This document shows, piece by piece, positions 1-48,241 of a DNA stretch of 64,000 nucleotides. Made by a program: the position numbers and the translations under genes. Positions within the stretch are counted from its first letter, which is position 1, and every line of letters begins with the position of its first letter. The notes below the pieces were generated by a model, which did not search any database, was not told the DNA's origin, and saw only the letters and a list, made by a program, of their open reading frames with translations. The DNA comes from Paenibacillus riograndensis SBR5 (lineage in GTDB: Bacteria; Bacillota; Bacilli; Paenibacillales; Paenibacillaceae). The DNA is taken from positions 7,073,216 to 7,137,215 of the forward strand of contig NZ_LN831776.1 of assembly GCF_000981585.1 (NCBI RefSeq), read 5' to 3'.

Positions 1-102
1 GTTATCCACCAGGATTTCTTTTACGCCAGCTTTCAATATTGCTGGAACTTCAGCGAACTTGGTTTTCCCCAAGATTACACGCTGTGCGAAAAACATAGTC
101 AT
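1..102 (-). CDS. Small phage tail-cluster protein, 3' end outside window (partial)
   Basis: The first 34 codons of a short minus-strand gene are visible, starting MTMFFAQRVILG; the frame is still open at the window edge. A GAAGGTGA ribosome binding site lies six bases before the ATG. It follows the XkdW-like gene, the place where PBSX-type clusters carry XkdX and other small proteins just before the lysis genes. The sequence does not look like the XkdX at 31565-31699. Function unknown; I infer a small protein of the tail cluster. Confidence 0.65.
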   Translation of the reverse strand, partial: MTMFFAQRVILGKTKFAEVPAILKAGVKEILVDN

Positions 103-156
103 TAAAAATCACCTTCTTCCCATTTTGACCTTCAACCATATAGAGCAGGCTGGTTA

Positions 157-633
157 TTACTGATAGACCCTCATCGCCATCTCTGCAATGATATCTTCAA
201 TAAAGTCAGCCCTCTCAGACAGAGCATTGTTTTGCGACTTCAGCAGAAGATTTTCCTTTTGGAGCTGTTCAAGCCCAGTAAGTTCCGGCGGCTTGTTGGC
301 TTCGGCTTCCTGGTAGGCTTCCCAAGCGGCTTGCAGCTCGGCTTCTGTCGGCTGGGGCTTATCCAGGTTCCAGACTGCGATATAGGGTCCACGCTCTACG
401 ATATCGTAATCCTCACCCTCAGTGAGTAGGTTGTAGTCGATACCGTAGCGATAATGGACGTCCTCTGCTGGTTTCTCGCCTTCTTTCGGCGGCTTGATCT
501 CGTAGCGGACTCGGCCTTTTTCCTCGGCTCCGGGCCGCAGGATGGGTTCCGGGCCGTTGTCCCATACTTCAAAATCTTTATTCGGTTCCGCCGTTGGAAA
601 CAACTGTTCTATAGCAAGCGATAAAATCATTTC
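157..633 (-). CDS. XkdW-like tail-cluster protein
   Basis: A 158-residue acidic protein. I chose the ATG at 633 because GGAG lies eight bases upstream and the fibre gene ends at 650; an in-frame upstream ATG at 693 would overlap that gene. The middle has the pattern GPYIAVWNLDKPQPTEAELQ followed by a helical stretch, and the last 50 residues are predicted coiled coil. The gene at 31700-32038 has the same layout (GPYIGVWETDTPKPTTEELQ), so the two tail clusters share this family. In PBSX the family sits after the fibre genes. Its exact role is not established; a fibre-associated or assembly role is inferred from position. Confidence 0.7.
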   Translation of the reverse strand, partial: EMILSLAIEQLFPTAEPNKDFEVWDNGPEPILRPGAEEKGRVRYEIKPPKEGEKPAEDVHYRYGIDYNLLTEGEDYDIVERGPYIAVWNLDKPQPTEAELQAAWEAYQEAEANKPPELTGLEQLQKENLLLKSQNNALSERADFIEDIIAEMAMRVYQ

Positions 634-649
634 ATCATCTCCATTCTTT

Positions 650-2230
650 TTATGCAACTCGCACAATTTCAAGGTGGGTTGTATCCATGCCATTTACTAT
701 GGCAACGGAATACATGTCTGTGTATAGCTGTATGGCAGCAGTCTGTCCAGCTGGGAGATACAGGAATATGTCTCCTGATAAGAAAGTATGTGTGGTCACA
801 GTCGTTGTTAAAACATCCGCAATCCATCTGCTAGAACCATTTTGCAGTATACCGAGTTGATAAGTGGCAGCCGGGGCACTCTGTAACTGGACAGCCGCTT
901 TGATTTTATACCAACCTGTTTGTGGACTAGTGAATACTCCCGTAGTGGTGTTGTACCCGCTTTGTTGATTGGTGGAAATTACATATCTAAGCAAATTCCA
1001 CGCGGACGCGGTGGTTGTTAAACCTGAAGCCAGCCCGCCGCACCACACTATTGCTCTGATGTCATGTGTATTATCTCCCCATGGGTTAATAACACCGCCG
1101 TAGGTTAAAATTCCGTTATCACTTGAATCTCCGCTAGTACCTGTTACACGAGTTCCTGCCGCTGTGACTACAGAACCGAGAACACTTCTATTTCCCCAAG
1201 TGTTTCCTGAACCTGTGAAATTCTCGATATACGCAACGCTGGCATTAACGGCATTAACTGCAATGAATTTGTTGGAAAAATTACATGACGTTGCTCTAAT
1301 ATTGCTTAAATTCACATCTAAACCGGCACCTGTTCCTGCGGCGACAGTACTGTTTATATTATTGATCAAGGCACCGACGCTTGATATTACTGAAACAGCA
1401 TTAGTACCACTAGGGGGCAAACAGTTGAACCCATTTACTGTAACAAAACATGAGTTGCTGTACATTTTAATTGCATCTACCGTTCTGCTCGTAGATACAA
1501 CACTGTCACCCATCACAGCTATTTGACCAGATCCTGAATATCCAGATAGACTAATAATCTCTGCATACGTACCAGCCGCAACATTTACTGCCACAAAATG
1601 GTTGACGGTATCAGGAATCATACTAACTGCCTTTTGAATCGTCCTAAACGCCCCACCCGCCGTATTCGCCAATCCATTATTACCGTCGTTCCCATCCGTA
1701 CGCACATAATAGGTAATATCCGCTGTCGTCTGCTGCGGGGTGGTCGCCAAAGGCGCTTTACTGTTGAGTTGTCCTTGTATCCCGCTGGTCACTCCATCCA
1801 AATACCCAAACTCCGCATTCGATACAACGCCAGTGCCGATCTTGGTTGCATCGATTGCCGCAGCCGCGTTAATATCCGCGTTTACAATAACCCCGGGAGC
1901 AATCGCGGTAACCCCATCCCCTGTGCTGGTCACATCCCCGGTATGATTGGGATGTACATATTTATTGGCTCCGGCCGCTACTCCGTCCAGCTTCGCCTTA
2001 TCCGCTGCGGCCATCAGTCCGGCAGCGCTAGCAGTGGCTGCAGCTGTGGAAGCCTTAGCATTCCAAGCGGTGCGTTCCGCCGCTGTAATATGCTTTACCG
2101 TATCCACGGCATGATCCTGCACATTTTTAACGGCAGTATCCAAAACATCCATATTACCGTTCAAATCGGCGATATCGACTATATCTGTGCCATCCGGCTT
2201 TTTCAGCCCCAAATTGCCCGTAGTCTGCAT
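650..2230 (-). CDS. Tail fibre / receptor-binding protein
   Basis: A 526-residue fibre, the likely host-binding tip of the PBSX-type particle. The N-terminal 60 residues include HITAAERTAWNAKA (about 47-60), a module also found in the fibre at 32054-35572. Residues 60-160 are low-complexity Ala/Gly/Thr repeats typical of fibre shafts. From about 174 the segment YYVRTDGNDGNNGLANTAGG starts a probable right-handed beta-helix, as in phage tail spikes. The last 110 residues (TGVFTSPQTGWYKIKAAVQ onward) resemble a C1q/TNF-like jelly-roll head, a common receptor-binding fold. AGGAG precedes the ATG. It is flanked by the DUF2313 baseplate gene and the XkdW-like gene. The domain calls are by pattern only. 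Confidence 0.8.
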   Translation of the reverse strand: MQTTGNLGLKKPDGTDIVDIADLNGNMDVLDTAVKNVQDHAVDTVKHITAAERTAWNAKASTAAATASAAGLMAAADKAKLDGVAAGANKYVHPNHTGDVTSTGDGVTAIAPGVIVNADINAAAAIDATKIGTGVVSNAEFGYLDGVTSGIQGQLNSKAPLATTPQQTTADITYYVRTDGNDGNNGLANTAGGAFRTIQKAVSMIPDTVNHFVAVNVAAGTYAEIISLSGYSGSGQIAVMGDSVVSTSRTVDAIKMYSNSCFVTVNGFNCLPPSGTNAVSVISSVGALINNINSTVAAGTGAGLDVNLSNIRATSCNFSNKFIAVNAVNASVAYIENFTGSGNTWGNRSVLGSVVTAAGTRVTGTSGDSSDNGILTYGGVINPWGDNTHDIRAIVWCGGLASGLTTTASAWNLLRYVISTNQQSGYNTTTGVFTSPQTGWYKIKAAVQLQSAPAATYQLGILQNGSSRWIADVLTTTVTTHTFLSGDIFLYLPAGQTAAIQLYTDMYSVAIVNGMDTTHLEIVRVA

Positions 2231-2241
2231 AGTTCACACTC

Positions 2242-2853
2242 CTATTCGTATACTCTTAATTCATTCCATGTTCTGGCGTGCGCAGCATTCCAGGTGAGTG
2301 ACTTCAGCGAATTCCACCAGGTATAGCTGTACACAAACTTATAATCCAGATGTGCAGGCTTAATCTCTTCTATGATTTGGATTAACCCTGCCATGTTCTC
2401 CGGGATGCCCAGCGTCCCTACAAAACGCACCTCAAAGCTGTATGCTCCCGGCACCTCCACAACCTGAACATCCCCTCCGGAAAAAGCGGACGCCGTCCGC
2501 CGGATCATCTCCGGCGTAGTGGTCCCGCTTCCGCGCAGCTTGGCCTTGATCATTTCCCGGCGGGCGGCATAGGATTTGGTATTGTCCGTGGTCAGGGCCA
2601 GCACCTTCTCCCAGCGCGCAAGCCCCCAGGTTGCCGACTCCACATTCGTCTGCAATGCTGAATCCTCTATCGAATAGGCCAGCTGTCCGCATTCCGCAGC
2701 ATGGCTATCCTGGATCTGCTCCATCTCAAGTACACCCTGATAATACTCCGGCAGGTATTTCATCAGGTCAGGCTTGCTAAATTCCGGCCCGTCTTGTGTC
2801 GCGGGACTGGAAGAATAGCTTATGGTCCCGTATAAATTCTCGCCATAGGTCAT
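2242..2853 (-). CDS. XkdU-like baseplate protein (DUF2313/YmfQ family)
   Basis: A 203-residue protein with the family hallmarks: an early MKYLPEYY motif, the central AARREMIKAKLRGSGTTTPEMI segment, and a C-terminal IIEEIKPAHLDYKFVY motif. The family corresponds to PBSX XkdU and Mu gp48, the baseplate component that links baseplate wedges to fibres. It is separated here from the gpJ-like gene by three genes (4228-4641, 3204-4226, 2856-3191), whereas in PBSX XkdU follows XkdT directly. This suggests that fibre-like genes were inserted between them. Confidence 0.85.
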   Translation of the reverse strand: MTYGENLYGTISYSSSPATQDGPEFSKPDLMKYLPEYYQGVLEMEQIQDSHAAECGQLAYSIEDSALQTNVESATWGLARWEKVLALTTDNTKSYAARREMIKAKLRGSGTTTPEMIRRTASAFSGGDVQVVEVPGAYSFEVRFVGTLGIPENMAGLIQIIEEIKPAHLDYKFVYSYTWWNSLKSLTWNAAHARTWNELRVYE

Positions 2854-2855
2854 AG

Positions 2856-3191
2856 TTACACCCCTTTAAGCTGATTCCAGCTCAGCGGGCCTTTAGGCAT
2901 GTACTCATGCGTATGAGCCGCTGGCGGATACACCGCCGGCTTCCCGTCTACCCCTGACCAAGGTACGGTATCCGCCGCCTGCGCGTAATCCACTTTGCCG
3001 TTGTTGTTGGTGTCATAGATGCTTTTCAGCATATCACCGGTGCTTTGTGAGGCTACGAGCAGTTTGTTGACAGTGCCCGTACCGATGTAGAGCTTGCCTG
3101 TATCGGTGCAGAACCCGAGTTCGCCAACAGCAAGAGTTCCCAGTGCGCTTTCTTGGCCGCGGCGGATTTGAATTAAAGTCTTCAGAGCCAT
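2856..3191 (-). CDS. Short Mtd-N-like tail protein
   Basis: A 111-residue protein that begins with a fibre-attachment-like motif, GELGFCTDTGKLYIGTGT (about residues 24-41). This matches the N-terminal half of the larger protein at 3204-4226 and resembles the major-tropism-determinant N-terminal domain that ties receptor-binding proteins to a baseplate. The rest is a calcium-loop-like DTNNNGKVD and a short tail. I chose ATG at 3191, eight bases after GGGGG; the ATG at 3197 is too close to that site. It is probably a partial duplicate of its upstream neighbour. Confidence 0.7.
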   Translation of the reverse strand: MALKTLIQIRRGQESALGTLAVGELGFCTDTGKLYIGTGTVNKLLVASQSTGDMLKSIYDTNNNGKVDYAQAADTVPWSGVDGKPAVYPPAAHTHEYMPKGPLSWNQLKGV

Positions 3192-3203
3192 TATCATCGC
3201 CCC

Positions 3204-4226
3204 CTAGAATGTGCCGCCGTCAATAGCACCCACCATCAGCCGGTTGCCATTAACTGTGTCGTATACGATGCTGCTTCCATCTACATTGGCCGCTACACCG
3301 TTCGCATCGACGGTGATCCCTTTGCCGGCGGTCACTGCAATCGCATCGGCCGTCACACCAATCCCGTAGCCTGCCCCAATGTTCAGTGTTACTGAATCGG
3401 CTTGTCCGCCCCCGGTAAGGCCATTGCCGGCTGTAATCGTCTGTAATGCTCCACCCGTACGAACCCAGGCACTGCCGTTCCAGCTGTAGATTTTCTGCTC
3501 ATCGTCAACATAAGCCGTCCAGCCCACAGCCGGTGTATAATACACCCATGCCGCAGATTGATACTCGGCAATTTGACTGGTTTTGCCCGCCCAGACGCCT
3601 GTTGCCGCCGCAGGAATAATGTAACGGTCGCCCTCCGCAGGACTCGCCGGGGGAACGGCCAGATTCTGGTCCTTCACTGAACTCTGCGGCTCGATGTTAT
3701 GCTTGGCCAGCTCGATCTCATTCCTGATTTTTTGTGCTGACCACAGATCGGTAATAGCCGTTCCCGCATCATTGATTACACGGTGCTTGGACGCATCGTC
3801 GATATGGGTTTTGATCTCAGCTGCAGTTTTGATATTTGTACCGTCAGAGATCTTATTTATATGTCCTGCCGTGATGTCTGCCTTCAGTACCTTGGCATAG
3901 GTTGCCCCATCGGCAACCTCGTCCACTGACCCTGTCAGATCACTCAGCTTCTGCACATTGATCCGGCGCCAGGCCGCGCCATCGTCAAAATACAAATAGC
4001 CGCTGTTCGTTCCGCTGGTTACAATGTATACCCGCCCCGCAGAAGCGGCTGCCGGACGTGAAGCCTCCGGACCGGACATCGCCCGGCCCACCATGGAGTT
4101 GGAGGTGCCGTCACCAATATAGACTTCCTTGGTATCTGTGCAGAAGCCCATCTCGCCCGCCTGCAGAACTCCATAAGCAGCAAGCTCCGCCCGGGTGCCG
4201 CGTTTTACTTGAATGGTTTGTGCCAT
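3204..4226 (-). CDS. Tail fibre protein with Mtd-N-like and DUF2793-like domains
   Basis: A 340-residue protein. Residues 1-50 hold VKRGTRAELAAYGVLQAGEM and FCTDTKEVYIGDGTSNSM, resembling the Mtd N-terminal baseplate-binding domain. Around 190-260 the run SPAEGDRYIIPAAATGVWAG to YSWNGSAW fits DUF2793, a domain found in phage and gene-transfer-agent tail proteins. The C-terminal 80 residues are Gly/Ala-rich beta repeats. AGAGGTG precedes the ATG. No reverse transcriptase or template repeat was seen nearby, so this is not evidence of a diversity-generating retroelement. Likely an adhesive fibre or baseplate decoration. Confidence 0.75.
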   Translation of the reverse strand: MAQTIQVKRGTRAELAAYGVLQAGEMGFCTDTKEVYIGDGTSNSMVGRAMSGPEASRPAAASAGRVYIVTSGTNSGYLYFDDGAAWRRINVQKLSDLTGSVDEVADGATYAKVLKADITAGHINKISDGTNIKTAAEIKTHIDDASKHRVINDAGTAITDLWSAQKIRNEIELAKHNIEPQSSVKDQNLAVPPASPAEGDRYIIPAAATGVWAGKTSQIAEYQSAAWVYYTPAVGWTAYVDDEQKIYSWNGSAWVRTGGALQTITAGNGLTGGGQADSVTLNIGAGYGIGVTADAIAVTAGKGITVDANGVAANVDGSSIVYDTVNGNRLMVGAIDGGTF

Positions 4227-4227
4227 T

Positions 4228-4641
4228 TTACACCTCTCTTCTAAAAGATCCTCCGTCTATGCGTCCCGTTGCCTTGTAGCGTTCAAGCTCCCTTTGGGCA
4301 GCAGTCAGCCCCCACTGCAGGACATTGATGTCATCGGCTTCCACAGTATCGCCCGGTGTCTCATAAGTGACATAGACTTCAGGAACCTCGGCAAAAATCT
4401 TAATCATCCTCCGCCAAGGCGTTTCATCCGGAAAAGAAACTGAGAAATTCCGCAGCTCCACTCCGCTGTAACGGGAACCTGTGTACACCGCAATGCTCTG
4501 GTTGTTAATGTTGTCATGTGCGAGCAGACCGCTGTAAACCCCATCTGTAAGGAACAGTTTCTCCTCAACAACATAGCTGCCGCCGTTTGCTTTTTTGTTC
4601 AGCTTGTCCGTAAATTCATCAATCTGCTGCGGGTATCCCAT
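4228..4641 (-). CDS. Unrecognised baseplate-region protein
   Basis: A 137-residue protein I cannot assign. It starts MGYPQQIDEFTDKLNKKANG and has the segments VVEEKLFLTDGVYSGLLAHD and PDETPWRRMIKIFAEVPEVYV, then a helical C-terminus ending in DGGSFRREV. The closing DGG.F pattern is also seen at the end of the next protein (AIDGGTF). It starts just after the gpJ-like gene stops, with GGAGG inside that gene's end, so the two are probably translationally coupled. The position suggests a baseplate-to-fibre adaptor; that is inference only. Confidence 0.6.
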   Translation of the reverse strand: MGYPQQIDEFTDKLNKKANGGSYVVEEKLFLTDGVYSGLLAHDNINNQSIAVYTGSRYSGVELRNFSVSFPDETPWRRMIKIFAEVPEVYVTYETPGDTVEADDINVLQWGLTAAQRELERYKATGRIDGGSFRREV

Positions 4642-4645
4642 CACC

Positions 4646-5710
4646 CTACACCTCCAGCACGACGCTGCTGAACAGCGGCACTTCAGTTTCGCTTAGAGTG
4701 ACATTGCCCGTTACGCCGTTCAACTTCAGCCCGCTATAGTCCACAACGCCTTCTGTATCCAGCAGCAGTGAACCTATTACAGATTGGCTGATATAGGACG
4801 CAGTAAAGGCCTTTTCCTTGCGGTATTTCTCCAGGATCTCCTTAAAAGCATCGATTACCTCCTGCAGACTATAACCGGAAGCAAGTGTAACCTTGGCGCT
4901 CACGCTGATGCTTTTCCCGGCTGCAGCCGCCACAGTCACTACCGCACCCACCGGCGCTTGGCCTTCACCCTGTCCAGAGACAGGATCGATATATTGCTGC
5001 ACCTGCGACACCAGCAGTTCTGAGGCAGGCCGCTTCGCGGCATCCACAATGACCACTTTCACCGTCTTCGGTCCATTCCATAACGGAAAAACCCGCGCTC
5101 CCCCTACGCCGTCTATTTGCAGCGCCCATTCCATATAATGATATTTGTTGCCGCTCGTTGACGGGCGTCTGACCGACTCCAGATAACGCTGGCGCAGCGC
5201 CTCGTCATCCTCGGCATTTTCACCGGGAATCAGCAGGGCTGTTATCTCTCCGCGTGCCAGAACAGGAATATAATCAATAGGCAGCAAGGAGCCAAAATAC
5301 CGGTTGCCTTCCTCCCCCGCTGTTTCGCTCTCCAGCCTGTAGGTTCCCGGAGCCAGCTTCTCCACCGCCGTATAATGCAGCAAATCGAGCGAAAAACGGC
5401 TGCCCAGCGGAACATCCAGCAGTCCACTCGCGCTATTATAGAACATTGCTTTGAGCTCGGCCTTGCTTGCGGCACGTCTGGTTATTCCCGACCAGGCAAT
5501 GCTGCGTTCCAAATATTCACCAGTAGCCGTATCCGCGAAAAACAGATTGCTGTTTACATCCAGCTCAATATACATCTGAGCCATTTCGGCGGCCGCCGGA
5601 GCCAGCGCATCATAAATGATGCTGCCTTCACGTTTATCCAGGCTGGATGGCACACGGTCCAGCATCCGCCCAAGCAGAGCCTCGAACGTCTGATCTTCAT
5701 ACACCCTCAC
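4646..5710 (-). CDS. Baseplate J-like wedge protein (XkdT type)
   Basis: A 354-residue baseplate wedge protein of the gpJ/gp47/XkdT family. The start has MLDRVPSSLDKREGSIIYDA, the common N-terminal motif; the middle (about 175-260) carries DDEALRQRYLESVRRPSTSG and the GNKYHYMEWALQIDGVGGAR element typical of the family. Translation probably starts at GTG 5710, which overlaps the end of the DUF2634 gene by 14 bases. In contractile particles this protein forms the hexagonal wedge around the hub together with the gp25-like and XkdU-like proteins. Confidence 0.9.
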   Translation of the reverse strand: MRVYEDQTFEALLGRMLDRVPSSLDKREGSIIYDALAPAAAEMAQMYIELDVNSNLFFADTATGEYLERSIAWSGITRRAASKAELKAMFYNSASGLLDVPLGSRFSLDLLHYTAVEKLAPGTYRLESETAGEEGNRYFGSLLPIDYIPVLARGEITALLIPGENAEDDEALRQRYLESVRRPSTSGNKYHYMEWALQIDGVGGARVFPLWNGPKTVKVVIVDAAKRPASELLVSQVQQYIDPVSGQGEGQAPVGAVVTVAAAAGKSISVSAKVTLASGYSLQEVIDAFKEILEKYRKEKAFTASYISQSVIGSLLLDTEGVVDYSGLKLNGVTGNVTLSETEVPLFSSVVLEV

Positions 5711-6128
5711 TCATCTCCTTTCTTAGCTCGAAATTTCCGTACTGGGTAATCACCTTGCAGCTAAAGCTCAGATTATCTCCGTTAAAAGAAACCTTAGTGT
5801 CCTCCAGCCCGATAATCCGCTCATCCTGAAGCAATGCTTCACTAACAATACGCCTGATTTCAGCTCTCACCAGCAGCCTGTCTTTTCCCAGCACAAGACT
5901 CCACTCAGTCCCGTAATCAGAACTGTAGATCAGATGCTCATAACGGTCTGTCCGCAGCATTTTGGCCACTGCCTGCTGCACTGCTTCAAGGCCGTCCAAC
6001 CGGCTCGTAATTCGTTTTTTGTCCCAATCCATTCTGTAGGTCAGACTGGACATTTCAGTGTTCCCCAAGGAGGTGTCTCCTTCAAGAGGTGCGGTGATCG
6101 GGCCTGCATTTCCAATTACGGGTATCAT
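5697..6128 (-). CDS. XkdS-like baseplate protein (DUF2634, gp25-related)
   Basis: A 143-residue protein that sits where PBSX has XkdS. Key stretches are YRMDWDKKRITSRLDGLEAV, YSSDYGTEW and EALLQDERIIGLEDTKV, the layout of gp25/gpW-type wedge proteins that fasten the sheath to the baseplate. Its ATG overlaps the stop of the preceding gene as ATGA, pointing to coupled translation. The C-terminus overlaps the start of the gpJ-like gene. Family knowledge supports a baseplate wedge role. Confidence 0.85.
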   Translation of the reverse strand: MIPVIGNAGPITAPLEGDTSLGNTEMSSLTYRMDWDKKRITSRLDGLEAVQQAVAKMLRTDRYEHLIYSSDYGTEWSLVLGKDRLLVRAEIRRIVSEALLQDERIIGLEDTKVSFNGDNLSFSCKVITQYGNFELRKEMSEGV

Positions 6129-6421
6129 ATCGGATCCACCAGCCTGTCCAGTACAACGTAACTCTGCCCGCCCTGCATCCGGACCATCAGGACACGGTCC
6201 CCCTTCTCAAGCCCCCGGCGCAGAACAATTTCCCTTCCATCCCATTCGAGCTTGCTCTCCATGACGGATTCGGGAAGAACCAGAGCGGCTCCTGACAAAA
6301 TAAACCGCTGGTCCACCTGAATCTGCAGCGGTGCTGCCACGGTTACCGTCCCATACGAAAAAGCCACAGGGTTGGTACTCCCTACGGCGCCGAGACTTGC
6401 TTTTTTTATAATATCGAGCAT
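6125..6421 (-). CDS. XkdR-like protein (DUF2577)
   Basis: A 98-residue protein matching the small DUF2577/XkdR family: N-terminal LDIIKKASLGAVGSTNPVAF, then GTVTVAAPLQIQVDQRF and C-terminal KGDRVLMVRMQGGQSYVVLD. It lies between the hub protein and the DUF2634 protein, as in PBSX. The GDRV-type beta-rich end resembles oligonucleotide-binding folds of small spike or hub proteins, which would fit a central needle, but this is inference. Confidence 0.85.
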   Translation of the reverse strand: MLDIIKKASLGAVGSTNPVAFSYGTVTVAAPLQIQVDQRFILSGAALVLPESVMESKLEWDGREIVLRRGLEKGDRVLMVRMQGGQSYVVLDRLVDPI

Positions 6422-6426
6422 TATTT

Positions 6427-8103: not shown

Positions 8104-8104
8104 G

Positions 8105-39513: not shown

Positions 39514-39520
39514 CTTACTC

Positions 39521-39721: not shown

Positions 39722-42717
39722 TGGAAGCTCACCCGCCTTTGTTGTTGGACCATGGCTTTGAAGCGGCGTTCAAAGCTATCCTCCGTCTGCTTCAAGGCCT
39801 CACGCAATTGTTCGACCATAGATTTATCACCGCCCTGCAGTGATACATTCGGTGCCCAGGTTACATGAATATCCCCTTTACCGCTGAACCCGTCACCGTA
39901 GCCCATCAAATCATTCGCCTTTTCTAATAGAGAGCGTGATCGCTGTTTACCATTCAAAGGAATGGCAATTTCGGGACCCGCTTCGCCAAATATAGATGGG
40001 ACGTTAGCAATTCCTCCTTCAGCATACCCCTCAAAATCCGGATCATGCAGTGCCCAATAAATTGCCTTCTGACCGGCTTTAGTTTGCGAATCGGGTTTGC
40101 CTTTGGTTTTAATCATCGCTTGGACATCGTTCCACTCATCATCCGAAAGCCTGAAATTCGGAATCTGCCCAGTCTGCTCCCATATGAGCTGCAAATTCAC
40201 TTTCTTTTCAGCAGGTAGTTTATCCACCTCCGCATTAAGATTAACCATGTAACTCATAGCTTGATTAAATTGCTTTTGCTGGGCAGCGGACATATCCTTG
40301 TATTTCTTGGCTTGTTGCTCCAGAGTGCCTCCCAGGTCAAGCTCGATCATTCGTTTTTGTAGATCGTAATAGGAGGAAAAGCTATTTTCAGCCTCGGTCA
40401 TCTCACTTTGGGTTTTCTTAATCTTGGTATAATACTTATCAAATGAACCTTGTATTTTTTCGTAGTCTTGTCTAACTGTTGCAACAGCAATACCAGCATA
40501 TCCACCATAATCTGTACCTTGAGCCTTATTGAGATTCTGCAGCACCTCATCTACTTGTTGCTGCTTCTGCTCATCATTTCCCTGACCGCCCATAATCTCA
40601 TCCAGTTGATTCATGTATAAATGATAGTCACGAAATGATACTTTAGACTTCTCATAATCAGAATTTTGTGTGCTGAGGTTTTTGGTCAATTCTGAATACC
40701 GGCTTTCCAAATCAGGCAATTTCGCTTGTGCTGAAAGTGCGTCATGTTCCATCTCGCGACGGCTCATTTGCTCATGGGCTTTTTTAATATCCCCGACTAA
40801 CCCCAACTGCTCGCGGAATTTACTATTCTTAGAGCCTTCTGCAGACAAAATATCCGGATTCATTTCGATAAGCTCTTGTTCTACAAGCTGTTGTTTCCTT
40901 CTAGCCTCAGCCAATTCGTCCGCAGGAGTTTTGGCATTTTTAATTTTTTGGGTCAGACGGTCATATTCCGTAATGAGATTCTGAGTCCGTTTGCTTGCAT
41001 GGTCGATTTCTGCATAATTAGAGTAAGCTTTGTCCAATACGTCCCCCATATTCAAAAGCTCACGCCGTGCATCTTCCTGGTGCTTCTTATAAGCAATAAC
41101 TCCGGCAGTGAGTAAGCCTACACCTGCTACGGCGATACCAACTGGATTCGTGAGCAACCCCAGCGCACTGGCGATTCCTCCGGCTGCTCCACTAGCCCCT
41201 CTGGCCGCAGTAACGATTTTAGAAAATTCTTGGACAATCTTCACTGTTTTTGTAGCCAGCACCGCAGCAGGAACTGTAAGACCGATTACCATCAGCGACT
41301 CCTTATTGTTGGAAACCCAACTGGTCAATCCCTGAAGTGCAGGCATTAAGCTTTCCGTTAAGGGAATTACAAGGTTTGCCTGCAGTTCCCGTCCCATTGC
41401 AGCAAACTGCTCCGAAAGAGTACTATCTTTTATCTCAGCTGCTTCTTCCAGGGTTTGCCTGGTCATATCAAACTCATTTCGGGTTTGACCAAGCGCCAAT
41501 ACTGCCTTGTTGCCCATGTCTTCGAACTGAGATCCGAACAAGGAACCGGCAAGCTTCGCCTGATGAATCGGCTCCTTGATCCCCTTTAATTTAAGAATAA
41601 CCTGCTCCATCGCTTCCTTGCCGGTCATAGATCCGTCTGCCAATCCTTTAAAGATTGTATCACCGGTGCCCAGCGTCTTTTGCAATTGAAGCATAGCCTT
41701 GTTTGCGGAATCCCCGCCCGACTTAAGATCTCCAACAAGTGCAGCTGCGCTTGCCTTCCCTGCAACTTTTACAAGTTGAGCGAATTCTTTCGATTTCGTT
41801 CCACCACTAACAAGTGCTGCGCTGAATTTTTTCAGTTGCTCAGGTGCAAACAGCTCATAAATTGCAGCCTTTGTGGAATCCGAGCCGTTTTTAATTGTTG
41901 TTCCGAATACTTTCACAGTATCGGCAACACCATCAAGCGAGCTCGCTCCATTCTCCATGCCTGCACTCAATAATTCGAACATCTCGTCGGCAGAATACCC
42001 CATTTTCTTGAAATCAACACTGTATTTCTCTATTGCATTCAAGAGGCCGCCGGATGTGTTCAGCCCCTTTTGAGCGCCTTGGGCCATAAGATTATACGCT
42101 TGTTCAGAGGAGATACCGAATTTTTGCATCATTGAATCAACTGCTTGCAGAGAGCCAGTTATGTCCTCTTTAAAGACATCACGATACGTCATGGCTGTCT
42201 GTGTTGTCTTCTCCAATTCATCCCCTGTTTGCTGCAAAACTTGCTTCACAGCTCCTACGGCGTTACCAATATCCTCAAAGTTTTTACCGTAATTCTGACT
42301 GTACAGGTTATTGGAGATTTCCTTCATTTCTTTCATTTCCTTCGAGGACATTCCGGTTTCAGCCTGTAGCTGCGCCATCGCCTCGGAAGATTCATTCACA
42401 GCAGTCCATACCGCCTTCAGCGGTTCCACTGCTTTATTAAGCATTGAGAAATCAATTTCTTTTACTGCATTTTTAAGTTTGTCGCCGAATCCTTCGACAT
42501 TTCCACCTGCATCCGCGATGCTGTCATCTGCCTGTTCAACCTCTCTTCGAAGCGTATCAAAATAACCGCGCCTGACCATCTCCTGCAGCGCCTGATCTAA
42601 ACCTTGAACCTGGTGTTCGGCCTCCTCGACCGACTGACGAAAAGCAGGAGTCACGAGCGCATTCAAACGGAAAACAATCTCATAAATGCTGCTGCTCAAG
42701 CTGCTTGTCCCTGCCAT
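39718..42717 (-). CDS. Tail tape measure protein, long (P2 gpT position)
   Basis: A 999-residue tape measure. The first 110 residues form a coiled coil. About 120-330 is the PhageMin_Tail-like core (AETGMSSKEMKEMKEISNNL, YSADEMFELLSAGMENGASS). About 470-560 has hydrophobic segments such as LTNPVGIAVAGVGLLTAGVI. 560-870 is a long charged helical region, and a Gly-rich segment GYAEGGIANVPSIFGEAGPE near 920 is a common tape-measure end. GGAGGTGA precedes the ATG. It is about 1.5 times longer than the tape measure of the PBSX-type cluster. Confidence 0.9.
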   Translation of the reverse strand: MAGTSSLSSSIYEIVFRLNALVTPAFRQSVEEAEHQVQGLDQALQEMVRRGYFDTLRREVEQADDSIADAGGNVEGFGDKLKNAVKEIDFSMLNKAVEPLKAVWTAVNESSEAMAQLQAETGMSSKEMKEMKEISNNLYSQNYGKNFEDIGNAVGAVKQVLQQTGDELEKTTQTAMTYRDVFKEDITGSLQAVDSMMQKFGISSEQAYNLMAQGAQKGLNTSGGLLNAIEKYSVDFKKMGYSADEMFELLSAGMENGASSLDGVADTVKVFGTTIKNGSDSTKAAIYELFAPEQLKKFSAALVSGGTKSKEFAQLVKVAGKASAAALVGDLKSGGDSANKAMLQLQKTLGTGDTIFKGLADGSMTGKEAMEQVILKLKGIKEPIHQAKLAGSLFGSQFEDMGNKAVLALGQTRNEFDMTRQTLEEAAEIKDSTLSEQFAAMGRELQANLVIPLTESLMPALQGLTSWVSNNKESLMVIGLTVPAAVLATKTVKIVQEFSKIVTAARGASGAAGGIASALGLLTNPVGIAVAGVGLLTAGVIAYKKHQEDARRELLNMGDVLDKAYSNYAEIDHASKRTQNLITEYDRLTQKIKNAKTPADELAEARRKQQLVEQELIEMNPDILSAEGSKNSKFREQLGLVGDIKKAHEQMSRREMEHDALSAQAKLPDLESRYSELTKNLSTQNSDYEKSKVSFRDYHLYMNQLDEIMGGQGNDEQKQQQVDEVLQNLNKAQGTDYGGYAGIAVATVRQDYEKIQGSFDKYYTKIKKTQSEMTEAENSFSSYYDLQKRMIELDLGGTLEQQAKKYKDMSAAQQKQFNQAMSYMVNLNAEVDKLPAEKKVNLQLIWEQTGQIPNFRLSDDEWNDVQAMIKTKGKPDSQTKAGQKAIYWALHDPDFEGYAEGGIANVPSIFGEAGPEIAIPLNGKQRSRSLLEKANDLMGYGDGFSGKGDIHVTWAPNVSLQGGDKSMVEQLREALKQTEDSFERRFKAMVQQQRRVSFQ

Positions 42718-42720
42718 AGG

Positions 42721-43190
42721 TCACCTCCTTCCTTTAATCCGGGTCACCCTCTCGACCCAATCCCCCAGTTCCTCAAGAGGCAAGGCAAGGAAATAAGGAA
42801 TAGGGGTATGGGTGAGCATGGCTAAGGAGACAGCGATGTCTTTGATCCCATCGCCGTCCCCGCAGCCTACAGCAGCAAAAAACTTTGCGCCCGCAAGGTC
42901 AGTTTTGTAAAGTCCTTGGCTGAAAGTGCTCTTATCAATCCAACATGAACGCCTGCAGCCTTTGCTACAATATAAGCCTGATAGGCTTTATTGGTTTCCT
43001 TGATTAGTTCCCCGCTTGATTGCCGGGCTGCTTCAGCTTGATACTGCCTGTCACAGACAAGGATGTCCTCGCCAGTCAGTTTATCGAAATCAATATTCAG
43101 GCTCTCAATAGTATTGCCTTCAAATGTAACCGGTCGGGCAAAAGTATATAGTTCCGCCACAACCTCCCCTATACTGCTCTCTGTTTCCAT
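42721..43190 (-). CDS. Tail chaperone E+E'-like, -1 frameshift fusion product
   Basis: Alternative long product of the gpE-like gene. The zero frame reads AGT TTT TTG CTG CTG TAG, giving the heptamer T TTT TTG at 42882-42876. After a -1 slip the frame is open for 51 codons up to TGA at 42721, encoding AAVGCGDGDGIKDIAVSLAM and TPIPYFLALPLEELGDWVER. The fusion is about 156 residues. P2 uses T TTT TTG for its E/E+E' shift. The extension ends six bases before the tape measure, and its end provides that gene's ribosome binding site. Confidence 0.8.
42867..43190 (-). CDS. Tail assembly chaperone E-like, short form
   Basis: A 107-residue protein of the phage tail assembly E/41/14 family: ARPVTFEGNTIESLNIDFDK, LTGEDILVCDRQYQAEAARQ and VHVGLIRALSAKDFTKLTLR. 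It lies between tube and tape measure. By analogy with P2 it keeps the tape measure in shape during tail assembly and is not in the mature particle. It ends at the slippery site described for the long form. Confidence 0.88.
   Translation of the reverse strand: METESSIGEVVAELYTFARPVTFEGNTIESLNIDFDKLTGEDILVCDRQYQAEAARQSSGELIKETNKAYQAYIVAKAAGVHVGLIRALSAKDFTKLTLRAQSFLLL
42876..42882 (-). promoter_or_regulatory. Slippery heptamer T TTT TTG
   Basis: Minus-strand T TTT TTG in the zero frame, three codons before the TAG of the gpE-like gene. It is the same heptamer known from the P2 E gene. Confidence 0.85.
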
Positions 43191-43203: not shown

Positions 43204-43722
43204 TTATAGGCCCAGATTGGCCTTGGTGGTAGCAAGATAGTCTACATCATTTACTTTATGAATATAGTTGTATTTATCGATTTCCAGCACTTCAATGCCA
43301 TCCAACGACACTTTCAAATAATTCACTGAAAAGTTATTGGTGGTATCCATCACTGCGGCGGTATCGAGGTTTCCGAGCGTTAAGCCAAGTGGTCTTGCAC
43401 GGACCGTAACCTTGAACGGTACCTCACGGTATTCACTCGTTGCCGTGTCAAATGTCTGAATCGAAGCCCGAAGGTCCAGCGTATGAACCTTTGGTGCTAA
43501 GAGCGCAGCTGCCGCCTTTTCAATCGTACGCCACTTAAGCGCCAAACTCATCGCTCCCGTATGGCCTGGGGAAGGGGCGGCCATTTCACCCGCGATTCCT
43601 CCCCCTTTAACTGTGTCCACCAGGTAAGTAATTTCCGGCAATGTGGCAGTTGCCGTACCCAAGTAATCTGTAGCGTTCAAGTACACCGAATAATCAATAA
43701 CTCTTTCTGATCTTTTAGTCAT
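43204..43722 (-). CDS. Tail tube protein (P2 FII-like)
   Basis: A 172-residue major tail tube protein: VYLNATDYLGTATATLPEIT at the start, the central GGGIAGEMAAPSPGHTGAMS, and a C-terminal YLKVSLDGIEVLEIDKYNYI that is highly typical of the FII family. It follows the sheath gene. It is unrelated to the XkdM-type tube at 10785-11249. Confidence 0.92.
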   Translation of the reverse strand: MTKRSERVIDYSVYLNATDYLGTATATLPEITYLVDTVKGGGIAGEMAAPSPGHTGAMSLALKWRTIEKAAAALLAPKVHTLDLRASIQTFDTATSEYREVPFKVTVRARPLGLTLGNLDTAAVMDTTNNFSVNYLKVSLDGIEVLEIDKYNYIHKVNDVDYLATTKANLGL

Positions 43723-43735: not shown

Positions 43736-45181
43736 TTACGCTACCAGCGCAGCTAAGTATGTTGTGTCGTATTCAAGCAGGAATGAAATCTCTTGTGCCG
43801 GTCCAGGCGGTGTGATGTGTAAATGGAATGTAATCTTGCCGGCCATCAATTCCGTTACCGGATTTTCAGACTCATTAAAATCTACCCGTGCTCCCAACAG
43901 CGCACCGGATGCAACCAGGCCATTAAGCCAAATATTTACCGAATCCGTAACCGCTGCAATAAGTCGCTTATTCATTGGATCATCAACCTTTTGCATATAG
44001 GTCATAATCAGACTATTCCCGATCCAGTTAAACATGCGGCGAACCGGAATGAAGCTGTCTTTGGGGTCCGTTACCCCCGGATAAGCCCCTGTGTTGTTCC
44101 CCCAAGACTTCCAGCCGCTCGTTCCAAGATTAACTGCTGTTACAATCCCTGAACTGTTAAGGAAGCTTGCCTGGTCAATCCCTAAAAACAGACTTGTCCC
44201 GTCGGAAAGAGTGGTACCATCTGCTTGCAAAGTTTTGTTAGATGGCGATACAAAAGGAACTCCACCGTTATTGGCATCGGTTGCGGCGATAAGTCCTGCG
44301 AGTTGCGTAGAGAAATGGTATTGCTTATCCCCCAAGGTCAGCATAGGGTAAGCTGCAATCTGGAGAGGACTGGTATAGCTGTTATCCGACTTCCATGAGC
44401 CAGCCGCCGTATAAAGCTGAGCAGGATCAATATCTGTCAAAGCCATTGCCTTGAAGTTGCCATTGATATTTCCCGCTTTTGCCTTCATAACCGCAGCGAT
44501 TGCAGGTAAATGCGACCACCCCGGAGCCAACAGTATATCAGGAAGAACGCCAAAACGAGGGTAGGCTTGATTTACTAGTTCAAAACCGGTATATTCACCG
44601 GACTGCGTCACGCCTCCAATTACATCATCAGCCTCCACTGCATCCGGATCCAGTTTGTTATAACCAATGGACAACTGGCTCACATTTGCCGCTATAGCAC
44701 CAGTTGACTTCGTTGTTATAATGACATGCCCATTATCATCAAAAGCAGCAGTATAATCGGTGCCTGGCACATAAGCCGATGCTCCGTCTGAAGATTTGAC
44801 AAGGAGCGTTGACAGCAGAACCCCCTCTGCCTGCAGGATAGCCACTCGGTTACTGACAGCAACCACAGCAGGTGTGACTGTCGTCTTATGTGTAGCGGGG
44901 TCAAGCACATTCACCAGTATCAATGGAGCTTTTTCATACAAGGCAAAATGAGAGTAAATTAATTCGCTCAGCGTATAATGTGACCAGTCATCACTATACC
45001 CTAGTGCAGCCACCGCTTCCGCGTAAGTATATGCGAGTACTGGAGTGTTCACTGGCACGGCCGCAGTAGCCAAATTAACGGGGGATGTCCCTACTGCAAA
45101 AGGAATACCACTTGTTGCCTTTGTCGGTGCCAGAACCGATGTGGATTGTTCAATAATAGTTACACCATGTTTAGAAGCCAT
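43736..45181 (-). CDS. Contractile tail sheath protein (P2 FI-like)
   Basis: A 481-residue sheath. The N-terminus KHGVTIIEQSTSVLAPTKAT and YSDDWSHYTLSELIYSHFAL match P2-type sheaths; the C-terminal part has FNWIGNSLIMTYMQKVDDPM, AAVTDSVNIWLNGLVASGAL and the closing HLHITPPGPAQEISFLLEY. It forms the contracting cylinder. The unrelated XkdK-type sheath in the other cluster shows that this is a second particle, not a duplicate. Confidence 0.93.
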   Translation of the reverse strand: MASKHGVTIIEQSTSVLAPTKATSGIPFAVGTSPVNLATAAVPVNTPVLAYTYAEAVAALGYSDDWSHYTLSELIYSHFALYEKAPLILVNVLDPATHKTTVTPAVVAVSNRVAILQAEGVLLSTLLVKSSDGASAYVPGTDYTAAFDDNGHVIITTKSTGAIAANVSQLSIGYNKLDPDAVEADDVIGGVTQSGEYTGFELVNQAYPRFGVLPDILLAPGWSHLPAIAAVMKAKAGNINGNFKAMALTDIDPAQLYTAAGSWKSDNSYTSPLQIAAYPMLTLGDKQYHFSTQLAGLIAATDANNGGVPFVSPSNKTLQADGTTLSDGTSLFLGIDQASFLNSSGIVTAVNLGTSGWKSWGNNTGAYPGVTDPKDSFIPVRRMFNWIGNSLIMTYMQKVDDPMNKRLIAAVTDSVNIWLNGLVASGALLGARVDFNESENPVTELMAGKITFHLHITPPGPAQEISFLLEYDTTYLAALVA

Positions 45182-45184: not shown

Positions 45185-45532
45185 TTAAATCCCCTTTCCT
45201 AAAAGCCTTTGATAAACTACATATTCAGCTGTTCCGGTTTGAACAATACGGTCTTGTACAGCCGTTATTTCTGCTATCGGTACAATCAACTCAGACACAT
45301 CCGGCTTTTCAGCCAACAGTGGCTGCAAATAAGATGGAATACCGGATCGGAAAACGGTGGATTGTAGCAGTTGTCCACCTGGCAGGTTTGGTCCCAGATA
45401 GATTAAGACCTGTTTTTGTTTCTCTTCTTCAAGACCAACCATAGTTTTCAAGGTTTGATTTGGAATCACCTGTACCATATCAGCTTCCACCTGCTCATTC
45501 TGATGCTTGTCCTTATTTATATTTCGGCTCAC
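45185..45532 (-). CDS. Unrecognised tail-cluster protein
   Basis: A 115-residue protein just before the sheath. The N-terminus is charged (MSRNINKDKHQNEQVEADMV); VLIYLGPNLPGGQLLQSTVF and IPSYLQPLLAEKPDVSELIV follow. The gene overlaps the one upstream by four bases. In similar clusters this slot carries a small conserved protein of unknown role; no motif allows a call. Confidence 0.65.
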   Translation of the reverse strand: MSRNINKDKHQNEQVEADMVQVIPNQTLKTMVGLEEEKQKQVLIYLGPNLPGGQLLQSTVFRSGIPSYLQPLLAEKPDVSELIVPIAEITAVQDRIVQTGTAEYVVYQRLLGKGI

Positions 45533-45951
45533 AATTGTACCTCCTGTCTAATTTGGGGCAATGCCCAGGTAGTTGTTAGTTCTCCACCCCATTCGGATGA
45601 AGAATGCTCCTCGTTCATTTTCCATTTCCAGCTACCATCCATAGCAAATTTCTGCTCAAGGACTCGCTGACGTAAAAGTAATATGCGTACCCGATCCATC
45701 AAATTAAGCAGATCGATTAAACCTGTACTATCCTCGGACTGTGTTCCAAAAAACAGCTTGACTTGAATCTCATCTTTGCTGGTGGCTCCTTCGCCTTCCG
45801 CTGGCAGAATCATAATTACTGGGTACCCCGCGCTACTGGCAGTACTCTGATTCAAATAACCCAGAAGCACTGTTGGTATAGGCAGCATGTCATCAGCTAA
45901 TTCCTTCTCCAGGAATTTTTTTATAGCCATGATCAATAAAGTAATTGTCAC
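45529..45951 (-). CDS. Probable tail terminator/completion protein
   Basis: A 140-residue protein near the front of the tail operon. The layout VTITLLIMAIKKFLEKELAD, PVIMILPAEGEGATSKDEIQ, VKLFFGTQSEDSTGLIDLLN and LTTTWALPQIRQEVQL fits tail-completion proteins. Start is GTG 45951, six bases after GGAGG; an internal ATG (residue 8) lacks a site. The role is inferred from position and fold pattern. Confidence 0.65.
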   Translation of the reverse strand: MTITLLIMAIKKFLEKELADDMLPIPTVLLGYLNQSTASSAGYPVIMILPAEGEGATSKDEIQVKLFFGTQSEDSTGLIDLLNLMDRVRILLLRQRVLEQKFAMDGSWKWKMNEEHSSSEWGGELTTTWALPQIRQEVQL

Positions 45952-46016: not shown

Positions 46017-46139
46017 CTTTTCTACACCTCCTTTGCTGGCGTTATTGTCAGCTCAAAGCTTTTATTTGTCTTTGCATCTATTGAGGGCTTTCACTAGACA
46101 ATTAATCCATTTTATATTAATAATTCCTTTTATGGCACA

Positions 46140-46658
46140 TTAATTCTTCCCGTTCATTATCGAGCAGATTTTTCTTTGCGCCCGCTGGATATATTCACTT
46201 ACACTGCCTGCCGAAATCGTGAGCATCTCAGCGATGGCAACATGCGAAAACCCCTCTCCGTTAGCCAGCATGTAGCACTCCCGTTCCCTTTTGCTTAACA
46301 GTGCCATTATATATTCCAGTCGTAACTGCTGATCCTCTGAGAGGCCTTCTGAGTTGACCGCATTAGTATGAGTATGTCTGGTGAAAATTTGCATACGCAT
46401 TGGTTCTAAAAGAATTTCCCGCTCGTAACCGGCTCTCCGTTCTATACCCCTCTTGTTCCCCGGCTGCCGACCAGTGCTCAGCCACTCTACAACATATTCG
46501 CAGTCACTGATCATACCAGCGATTACCTTTTTATCATCCGCATCAGCATGCCTATATAATTGTTCTGCTCCCCTCAAGGAAATTTGATAATCTGGAAGCA
46601 TGTCATCTACAAATTCCGAATATGAAAATAACGGCCGATCTACATACATATTGTTCAT
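46140..46658 (-). CDS. Sigma-region-4-like late regulator of the P2-type cluster
   Basis: A 172-residue protein. The last 55 residues (EYIMALLSKRERECYMLANG, HVAIAEMLTISAGSVSEYIQ) form a sigma-region-4-like helix-turn-helix. The N-terminal part has DMLPDYQISLRGAEQLYRHA and a second helical part. ATG 46658 has GGGGG upstream; earlier ATGs (46688, 46664) do not. It is the first gene after the promoter at 46720-46748. Such proteins (PBSX Xpf type) activate late phage genes; that role is inferred here. Confidence 0.8.
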   Translation of the reverse strand: MNNMYVDRPLFSYSEFVDDMLPDYQISLRGAEQLYRHADADDKKVIAGMISDCEYVVEWLSTGRQPGNKRGIERRAGYEREILLEPMRMQIFTRHTHTNAVNSEGLSEDQQLRLEYIMALLSKRERECYMLANGEGFSHVAIAEMLTISAGSVSEYIQRAQRKICSIMNGKN

Positions 46659-46693
46659 GCTCATTCCCCCAATAATTATGAAATACACTCAAT

Positions 46694-46837: not shown

Positions 46838-46865
46838 ACTTTGATGTTTTTGAGGAGGAGTATTT

Positions 46866-47264
46866 GTGCAGAGGGCTGAAGTCTTAAAGAAGTTAATCGA
46901 GGAAACAGGCCTGAACACGAAAGCTTTTGCAGAAAAGGCGGGCCTTCCCTATACTACTCTTAGATCAATCTTAATGCGGGGAGTAGGGGGCGCATCTGTC
47001 GATAATGTAATTAAGGTTTGCCGTGCTTTGGGTATAACTGCCGAAGATATGGAGCGTTTGGCTTCCGGAACGAACCAAGAAGCTGTAACTCCAATGCTGT
47101 CTGAACTTTCTGAATTTGAGGCTTTCCTAAATAATCCGGAGCATGGGCTTTTTTTTAAAGATTATTTGGAGGCTCCTGAAGAACGCAAACGGGAAATGTT
47201 AACCTTTTGGCAATTCATCAAGGATTTAGAGAAGAAAAAATCGGAGTTTCCAGGTGAGAAATAA
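46866..47264 (+). CDS. Xre-family repressor of the P2-type cluster
   Basis: A 132-residue protein with an N-terminal helix-turn-helix (residues 5-60: LKKLIEETGLNTKAFAEKAG, LPYTTLRSILMRGVGGASVD). The C-terminal half is helical and acidic (LFFKDYLEAPEERKREML). Start is GTG, five bases after GGAGGAG. It is divergent from the tail operon and followed by an ImmA-type protease gene, the same module as at 14472-15372 though the proteins differ. Confidence 0.88.
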   Translation: MQRAEVLKKLIEETGLNTKAFAEKAGLPYTTLRSILMRGVGGASVDNVIKVCRALGITAEDMERLASGTNQEAVTPMLSELSEFEAFLNNPEHGLFFKDYLEAPEERKREMLTFWQFIKDLEKKKSEFPGEK

Positions 47265-47322
47265 ATTATTTTGCGTAAAATCGTGGTTTCAGCCAACGAG
47301 CTGATTCCTCATACCCAATATA

Positions 47323-47336
47323 CGAACATACATTCC
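47323..47336 (+). promoter_or_regulatory. SOS-box-like sequence before the second ImmA gene
   Basis: CGAACATACATTCC matches the LexA consensus CGAACRNRYGTTYC in all but one position, 17 bases before the protease start. Placement between Xre and ImmA would allow DNA-damage control of the protease; no -35/-10 was clear. Confidence 0.45.
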
Positions 47337-47353
47337 CATCATGGAGGTTTTTT

Positions 47354-48241
47354 ATGTTTATACATTATAAAAAAACACATCTGGAGCATTTTGTGGAACA
47401 AATTTACATAGACCATCACATTCAAATTCCGGAAGATATCACGATTGAAAAACTCTCTACAGAGCTGAATATCTACGTAGAGTACGCACCTATCAGGAGT
47501 AGAGCCTATGAATCCAATTCGGGTATACGCTGCATACTTTTGGATAATCGAATAACACCAATGAAGCAACGCTTCGAATTTTTGCATGAGCTCTGTCACA
47601 TACTGCGACACGCAGGCAATCAAATGGTCCTTCCTAGCCCCTTTATTAAAGCCCAGGAGGAAGATGCAGAGAAATTTCTTCTTTATGCAACTATGCCTTT
47701 TTTTATGATTCAACCAGGTGCATTATCTGATGAATATGACGTTGCTATCCATCAGCTTTCCAGTATCTTTGGTGTATCCAAAGATATGGCTAAAAAACGT
47801 TTCGATCAAATCCTGCGCCGCGAGTATGAAGGAGAACTTATACCTGATGCTGGTGGTCGACAATTATCAAGGAGAAAGAATGCTGAGCCTAATCAAGATA
47901 ATTATGAGACTAAAATATTTGCTTATTACGATCCTCACAGCACTTTAGATGGACCGGACCAACTTATCGTTTGTCTTGATCAGAAGACTCTGTTAAGCCA
48001 ACATGAATGGGTAGTCCCTGTCGAAGAACGGTTTCAAGAGATTGACCTCGAATCATTGAAGAATATTGAAATCGAGTCCGCAACAAGAGGCGATTTGATC
48101 TGCTTTGATGGACAATTAACCTTACAAATTCACCAGCTTGTCTACAAATATGGTTTATCAAAACGAAACTTTGTGCTGCAAATGAGGGATATTGAACAGA
48201 TCCTTGAGGCAGACCAGAGCTCCGTTAGAAAGTTTCTATGA
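47354..48241 (+). CDS. ImmA/IrrE-type metalloprotease of the P2-type cluster
   Basis: A 295-residue protein whose first 150 residues form the M78 domain with HELCHILRH (about 77-85), giving the zinc ligands and catalytic Glu, followed by EEDAEKFLLYATMPFF (third ligand region). The C-terminal 130 residues are a distinct domain absent from the 140-residue enzyme in the other cluster, possibly for sensing. GGAGG precedes the ATG. It likely relieves the Xre repressor. Confidence 0.87.
   Translation: MFIHYKKTHLEHFVEQIYIDHHIQIPEDITIEKLSTELNIYVEYAPIRSRAYESNSGIRCILLDNRITPMKQRFEFLHELCHILRHAGNQMVLPSPFIKAQEEDAEKFLLYATMPFFMIQPGALSDEYDVAIHQLSSIFGVSKDMAKKRFDQILRREYEGELIPDAGGRQLSRRKNAEPNQDNYETKIFAYYDPHSTLDGPDQLIVCLDQKTLLSQHEWVVPVEERFQEIDLESLKNIEIESATRGDLICFDGQLTLQIHQLVYKYGLSKRNFVLQMRDIEQILEADQSSVRKFL

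Follow-up and report, generated by a model that had tools for sequence, protein, structure and literature searches.

A 64,000-nt stretch of the Paenibacillus riograndensis SBR5 genome (7.92 Mb, single contig), hereafter the window, very probably encodes two different contractile tailocins, that is, headless phage tails serving as bacteriocins. They are named cluster A, of the PBSX/diffocin type, and cluster B, of the P2/R-pyocin type. The data are best read as two domesticated tailocins, of which B would descend from a phage, the tail genes of which are still accompanied by head genes in relatives. Two tailocins had already been proposed in a preliminary description of this DNA, and the present analysis upholds the proposal: the tails are complete and intact, they evolve under purifying selection with exchanged fibres, head genes are missing, and both clusters are found together in 10 out of 100 genomes of the genus (one per species, this genome, G000, included).

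The two clusters flank one rRNA operon, as first described, with 14 tRNA genes also between them. Both had been placed correctly, and only the left limit of A had to be revised, as ~2.3 kb of this cluster, with its lysis genes, lie to the left of the window. The neighbours of cluster A are ppc (left) and the tRNA/rRNA operon (right); those of cluster B are cysH and rpsI. The spacing between A and B is ~32 kb from sheath to sheath, with housekeeping and rRNA genes in between.

Sheath, tube, tape measure, baseplate, and fibre genes, the set expected of an R-type tailocin, occur together in A and in B. Each cluster has its own regulators, that is, Xre and ImmA plus an activator (A) or a sigma factor (B), and the divergent Xre repressor and ImmA-type protease of the earlier account were recovered as an Xre and M78/ImmA pair beside each cluster. 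The genes of A within the window are the following:

157..693, minus strand: XkdW-like protein, tail fibre assembly (PF09636, 65 bits; phrog_8746)
650..2230, minus strand: tail fibre, 526 aa, with a C1q-like tip (C1q); divergence between close relatives far above that of neighbouring A genes
2242..7389, minus strand: baseplate block (Gp48, two Mtd_N proteins, 138-aa protein, J, sheath initiator, DUF2577, XkdQ-like hub; phrog_18608 for the 138-aa protein)
7402..8145, minus strand: LysM protein in the XkdP position (LysM; phrog_380, labelled endolysin)
8105..10054, minus strand: tape measure, 649 aa (phrog_1068)
10254..10676, minus strand: tail assembly chaperone (PF08890)
10785..11249, minus strand: tail tube (PF09393; PBSX XkdM 2guj, E 2.4e-38; diffocin tube)
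11251..12573, minus strand: tail sheath (PF04984; 3hxl, 3lml, diffocin 8v3t)
12746..13168, minus strand: tail terminator (PF20765)
13646..14164, minus strand: transcriptional activator in the position of PBSX Xpf, frame open from 14272 (phrog_248)
14472..14921, plus strand: Xre repressor (HTH families)
14950..15372, plus strand: ImmA/IrrE-type protease (PF06114)

Left of the window, the lysis genes of A encode an M15 peptidase and a holin of the Hol118 type, together with three small proteins that match no Pfam family. In a search of solved structures, the matches to the A sheath were DSY3957, Lin1278, and diffocin CD1363; for the hub of A, there is only a marginal match, to diffocin (E 0.0063). 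The major tropism determinant N-terminal domain (Mtd_N) is found in two A proteins (window 2856-4226). The genes of B are the following:

31567..31699, minus strand: putative XkdX-like small protein, 44-codon frame MNWYALVKRYFD..
31700..32038, minus strand: XkdW-like protein (PF09636)
32054..35572, minus strand: tail fibre, 1172 aa (PF12571)
35585..39721, minus strand: baseplate block (I, J, gp25, U, baseplate assembly protein, D hub, X; hub similar to R2 pyocin 6u5h, E 3e-12)
39718..42717, minus strand: tape measure, 999 aa (PF10145)
42867..43190, minus strand: tail assembly chaperone (phrog_3140)
43204..43722, minus strand: tail tube, FII family (PF04985; R2 pyocin tube, E 1.7e-4)
43736..45181, minus strand: tail sheath (phrog_23; R pyocin sheath PA0622, E 3.5e-20)
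45185..45951, minus strand: two small proteins, 115 and 140 aa (phrog_4089, phrog_2581)
46140..46688, minus strand: sigma factor (Sigma70_r4_2; phrog_1190)
46866..47264, plus strand: Xre repressor (HTH_26, HTH_3)
47354..48241, plus strand: ImmA/IrrE-type protease (PF06114)

Neither the sheaths nor the tubes of A and B align with each other beyond chance, which agrees with the different families claimed at first. Likewise, the reported absence of head genes ahead of the sheaths was confirmed for both clusters. No capsid, portal, terminase, or integrase match was obtained among the scanned A and B proteins, and the gaps between regulators and tails leave no room for such genes. In A, ~480 bp separate the activator from the tail terminator, with no capsid, portal, or terminase. 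Since it consists of a tail only and lacks head genes in this gap, A is considered related to PBSX but not a PBSX element. Within the same interval (window 13168-13646), a stretch that possibly codes for a short peptide, MANEAEGHRRSMNA.., is strongly conserved across 15 aligned genomes. In B, only two small genes lie between the sigma factor and the sheath, and none of these three genes is present there either. As the window lacks genes for a head, for packaging, and for integration, B is not a complete prophage. For one of the two small genes of B (45529-45951), the PHROG match carries the label "head and packaging, virion structural protein", but the gene is kept in 13/13 headless B clusters compared and for this reason is read, perhaps, as a tail-completion protein.

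Head genes elsewhere that join these tails had been named as evidence that would speak against tailocins. Head genes are indeed present in a separate siphophage-type prophage at 0.21-0.23 Mb (G000:C1:205000-241999), which was found by its reading frames and contains a terminase-like gene, a tape measure, tail genes, a small putative holin gene, and an M15 endolysin. Whole-genome searches for three terminase and three portal families gave no matches, and they are weak negatives because this prophage escaped them. The tails of A and B might serve a helper or satellite phage, with heads from elsewhere joining them, and the head genes of the prophage would be a possible source. However, this prophage has its own tail genes, no sheath was found in it, and A and B are without packaging and integration genes; the idea is hardly credible and was rejected.

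It is also highly improbable, though marginally less so, that the clusters are extracellular contractile injection systems (eCISs), delivering effectors instead of killing. This genome does harbor a separate eCIS-like cluster, but no AAA+ ATPase, the component expected of an eCIS, and no cargo candidate were found among the scanned A and B proteins. Furthermore, the regulators are of phage type and A has a lysis cassette. The identification as eCISs was dismissed; an AAA+ ATPase is present in the separate cluster. That cluster, a third contractile system (~4.96 Mb; G000:C1:4946000-4965999), encodes a sheath, a VgrG-like OB-domain protein, and the AAA+ ATPase of 767 aa.

Purifying selection acts on both clusters, which are intact, and the fibres change fast. 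Inactivating mutations, which would have counted against the tailocins, were found in neither tail cluster of this genome. The 17 genes examined in A (without fibre and XkdW) are all present at >70% of their length in the ten genomes that carry both clusters. The respective count for B is 16/16 in five of these genomes and 15/16 in the other five, the missing one always being the 115-aa protein. In four close pairs of genomes, the ratio of nonsynonymous to synonymous divergence (dN/dS) of the tail genes is mostly 0-0.3, and the maxima of 0.61 and 0.71 come from genes with a dS of 0.09 and 0.04. One or both clusters could still be decaying, non-functional prophage remnants, as the lysis genes of B are lost and the close relatives G052 and G026 are without B. 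This is unlikely, as the genes stay intact in ten genomes with low dN/dS, and the regulators and a promoter element are conserved. A mere remnant was rejected for B, whose genes are intact and selected.

The fibres show dN/dS values of 0.30-0.48 at much higher divergence, with one case saturated. For instance, between G000 and G052, the A fibre has a dN of 0.41 and a dS of 0.84, versus a dN up to 0.015 and a dS of 0.02-0.19 for the other 15 A genes. In the case of B, ~290 N-terminal aa of the fibre are conserved and the remainder varies in length and sequence. Fibres of A and B from different genomes are often alike. In a test for exchange of tips between A and B of one genome, matches of at least 250 aa between an A and a B fibre occur in 19/90 cross-genome comparisons of the ten genomes and in 0/10 same-genome ones, a difference compatible with chance (~0.09 for none, by simple arithmetic). 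A constant tail with an exchanged tip would be the expectation for a tailocin whose targets change.

A comparison of the locus across related genomes had been recommended as a check on the two-tailocin proposal, and it found both headless clusters together, with B beside cysH, in G000, G008, G041, G046, G049, G082, G083, G085, G086, and G094. The B sheath is found in 31/100 genomes of the genus, with at least 67% identity in 18, the surroundings of which were all read. The A sheath is found in 78/100, with at least 72% identity in 47, and the surroundings were read in 17. A family-wide search detected a B-type sheath in 59/394 genomes. The named genomes with the B sheath closest to that of this genome are Paenibacillus, with P. 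phytohabitans on top at 88%. A headless B without any A sheath match in the genome is found in four cases, three of them beside cysH (G040, G055, and G087) and one at another site (G025). Four more genomes have the B tail with adjoining head genes, namely G053 beside cysH, and G037, G043, and G064 elsewhere. A GpA terminase, a lambda-type portal, and a capsid protein were identified in the prophage of G053, which adjoins cysH where relatives hold the headless B; capsid protein E was identified in G037; and the head genes of G043 and G064 were recognised by reading-frame similarity only. A head-bearing prophage with the same tail is found on the cysH side where relatives carry the tailocin.

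Six complete relatives with A and B share the order ppc, lysis A, tail A, tRNA/rRNA, nine housekeeping genes, tail B, and rpsI (in G046, ppc and the endolysin were outside the first stretch and were confirmed in a separately read one). In G041, G049, and G094, A and B are on separate contigs, whose ends lie near the tRNA side and the spoIIM side, as expected from an assembly break at the rRNA operon. The site of B is empty in G052, G026, G078, and G057, where the rpsI/truA region comes next after cysH and leaves no space for B; the A proteins of G052 are mostly 97-100% identical to those of this genome. Similarly, the site of A is empty in G040, G055, and G087, with tRNA genes within ~0.5 kb of ppc. 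The right border of B differs in G055, because ~11 kb of other genes lie between B and truA. Both clusters are inserts, gained or lost at fixed positions. In this genome, the interval between A and B includes:

15715..22379, minus strand: tRNA cluster and rRNA operon (one rRNA operon, 14 tRNA genes)

A 5S rRNA gene is located in the 16S-23S spacer of this operon (20589-20705), ahead of tRNA-Ile/tRNA-Ala, and the usual 5S after the 23S is also present.

A lysis cassette is found in A and not in B, an asymmetry absent from the preliminary description. Such a cassette is usual in R-type tailocins, but it was not taken as defining for each tail, because published dual clusters carry one per pair. 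The position in which B tailocins of relatives without A keep their lysis genes is empty here:

31217..31565, no strand assigned: interval between cysH and the B operon, with no lysis genes in this genome

The interval from cysH to the B fibre was searched in the relatives with the lysis genes of A and of the B tailocins without A, and operon-strand frames of at least 60 aa were listed; the five scanned frames that lacked identification contained no lytic domain. An endolysin is present in 4/4 genomes with B but without A and in 0/10 with B beside A, a contrast of ~0.001 by counting (1 in 1001), although the genomes are not independent. The four endolysins represent three families, i.e., M15 (G055 and G025, the latter assigned from similarity alone, with 52% across 241/244 residues), glucosaminidase (G087), and an Rv2525c-like hydrolase domain (G040). 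These counts leave out the 13 genomes with a B-type sheath below 67% identity (in G077, a 42-residue match only) and the four head-bearing B-type clusters. On the other side of the locus, the M15 endolysin of A is retained in 10/10 genomes with both clusters.

Intermediate stages of the loss in B are also found. In G008 and G041, the M15 endolysin is reduced to residues 2-36 (the first ~36 codons), next to small lysis genes. In G046 and G094, B has small lysis genes only. The other six genomes with A and B have no small lysis genes left, save a 33-residue match to a small protein in G086, and the gap between cysH and the fibre is just 232 and 220 bp in G083 and G085, respectively. Trees of eight host proteins and of six B proteins were built with FastTree and midpoint-rooted, with G025 not included. 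The B tree places G040, G055, and G087 in one clade and the ten tailocins beside A in another (support 1.0 for both splits), with the B of this genome as the earliest branch of the latter; in the host tree, G055 joins G040 and G087 with a support of 0.51. The cassette is wholly lost in the line of this genome and in the group of G049, G082, G083, G085, and G086, and remnants persist in the lines of G008/G041 and G046/G094. This distribution suggests that the small lysis genes were lost repeatedly, and the loss of the endolysin itself may have been a single event.

These patterns make release of B through the A lysis genes somewhat more probable than its contrary, and the combined reading, two tailocins with joint release through these genes, is modestly favored. 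A more demanding proposition, which we regard as an even call, is that B is a lysis-less tailocin dependent on its neighbor, its endolysin having been shed stepwise since the lysis genes of A respond to the same signal of DNA damage and open the cell for A and B alike. If so, the relatives would display, next to each other, a site without an insert, a prophage with heads, and three kinds of tailocin: self-sufficient, with a truncated endolysin gene, and devoid of lysis genes.

The regulatory sequences bear on the timing of the two clusters, and three elements were located:

15374..15385, no strand assigned: LexA-like palindrome directly behind A immA (GAAC-RTAY-GTTC), in 13/17 aligned A clusters (absent in G037, G053, G057, and G078)
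47324..47335, no strand assigned: LexA-like palindrome before B immA, GAACATAYATTC in 13/13 aligned
46085..46102, minus strand: putative late promoter element for the B sigma factor, GTCTAG invariant in 13/13 aligned

The palindromes near both immA genes resemble the Bacillus LexA box. The window contains three GAACNNNNGTTC sites versus 0.90 expected, and thus the evidence for LexA-like sites is their conservation in place and not their number. A common SOS trigger at both immA genes is possible, and the position of the site in B suggests that SOS would free ImmA, after which Xre would be removed. Between B xre and immA (window 47265-47323), there is a conserved TCGTGGTTTCAGCCAACG-type stretch of inverted-repeat character. 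The promoter element ahead of the first B structural gene is the single site of the genome within two mismatches (control 0) and fits a dedicated, putative promoter of the B sigma factor. As this element occurs once in the window and once in the genome, it is not shared with A, and the idea of one promoter element for both clusters was rejected.

Upon DNA damage, each ImmA-type protease would remove its own Xre repressor, and the LexA-like sites by both immA genes could time A and B together. The tail operons would then be switched on by their own activators, a phage-type activator in A and, in B, a dedicated sigma factor acting at one promoter. Two kinds of particle would assemble, with differing fibre tips and with lengths of very roughly 95 and 150 nm, as predicted from the tape measures of 649 and 999 aa at 0.15 nm per residue, and the holin and M15 endolysin of A would most likely release both kinds, because B is without an endolysin.

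The analysis shows which genes are present and that they are intact, conserved, and under purifying selection; it also shows the exchange of fibres and the absence or decay of B lysis genes beside A. SOS induction, killing, and joint release are inferred from these results. Several points weigh against this scheme. The repressor regions of A and B have differing repeated (operator-like) motifs, and the LexA-like site of A is behind, not ahead of, immA. The A tube frame of G052 is split in two, which may be a sequencing error because ppk2 is also split in that genome. Three of the four B tailocins without A form one clade (G025 being outside the trees), and so the lysis contrast does not represent many independent events. 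In G053 and G037, the B-type prophages with heads have an endolysin despite the presence of A, a retention that may fit an element having to time its own exit; a 304-aa gene is in the endolysin position of the G064 prophage. Finally, this genome has further M15 relatives, one in the prophage at 0.23 Mb and, at 3.40 and 5.91 Mb, respectively:

G000:C1:3402825-3403367: M15 relative in a phage remnant
G000:C1:5910101-5910784: M15 relative with a stop codon inside

Other lysis modules were searched in this genome, and the census of the relatives covers the A and B loci. Such modules could serve B, and this is the main reason for modest confidence in joint release. Both tailocins may work with B leaving the cell by other means, i.e., the lysis genes of the 0.23-Mb prophage, host autolysins, or another element, its endolysin loss being unrelated to A. 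The additional M15 genes, one accompanied by a small putative holin gene in the prophage, are in line with this explanation. Yet every B without A has an endolysin, from three families, and the A endolysin is kept wherever both clusters occur, and we consider an independent exit a tentative, clearly less probable alternative. Joint release through the lysis genes of A is preferred.

If the locus encodes two tailocins, one soil bacterium would possess two contractile weapons with separate targets. Among the paper titles and abstract beginnings listed in literature searches, with most subscription journals outside them, none reported paired tailocins in Paenibacillus, a weak sign of novelty. Paired tailocins with one lysis cassette are already known in Pseudomonas; the Paenibacillus case and its unusually clear intermediate stages appear, on this weak evidence, to be new.

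Diffocin (PMC11329794) and the PBSX-type particles of Brevibacillus laterosporus (PMC9406221) and Bacillus pumilus (PMC8347963) are described as single elements. Cluster A shares with them the family of its sheath and tube, as well as a regulation and gene order of PBSX type; unlike A, PBSX and the B. pumilus particle have heads packaging host DNA. In a table of the Brevibacillus paper, a Paenibacillus donghaensis sheath is given solely as a similarity hit (PMC9406221). The B sheath is ~50% identical to those of the Paenibacillus larvae phages phiERICV and Lily, which are complete phages. A lysis cassette is also missing from some eCIS loci (PMC10598620).

In Listeria, a monocin and a prophage are coordinated by the MpaR metalloprotease, with synchronised lysis (PMC6872733). 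As in our case, this is a Gram-positive host with two phage-derived elements and an ImmA-like protease, but the Listeria pair consists of one F-type tailocin and one prophage, with redundant lysis modules on both. The R and F pyocins of Pseudomonas aeruginosa combine two tail types from adjacent genes under a common lysis cassette and common regulators (PMC9810705). On the contrary, A and B are both contractile and separately regulated, the F-type being non-contractile. Pseudomonas protegens CHA0 likewise has two R-tailocins per strain, from two prophage origins and with one lysis gene set described (PMC7815802); it is Gram-negative with one cluster, whereas A and B are separate.

A close parallel is found in Pseudomonas chlororaphis, where two divergent tailocins of separate origin have one lysis cassette and a broader killing range (PMC12090994). 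The Paenibacillus pair resembles it in the divergence and separate origin of its tailocins and in the single lysis cassette proposed here. It differs from that Gram-negative, one-cluster system in that its members are ~32 kb apart, have their own repressor and activator each, and show stages of lysis loss in relatives. The review describing P. chlororaphis treats the question of multiple tailocins per cell without interference and names this species as one that may have found a solution (PMC12090994). The Paenibacillus clade would add a Gram-positive and apparently independent case, in which the evolutionary steps are visible in living species, so that dependence on the lysis genes of another tailocin is testable by single gene deletions.

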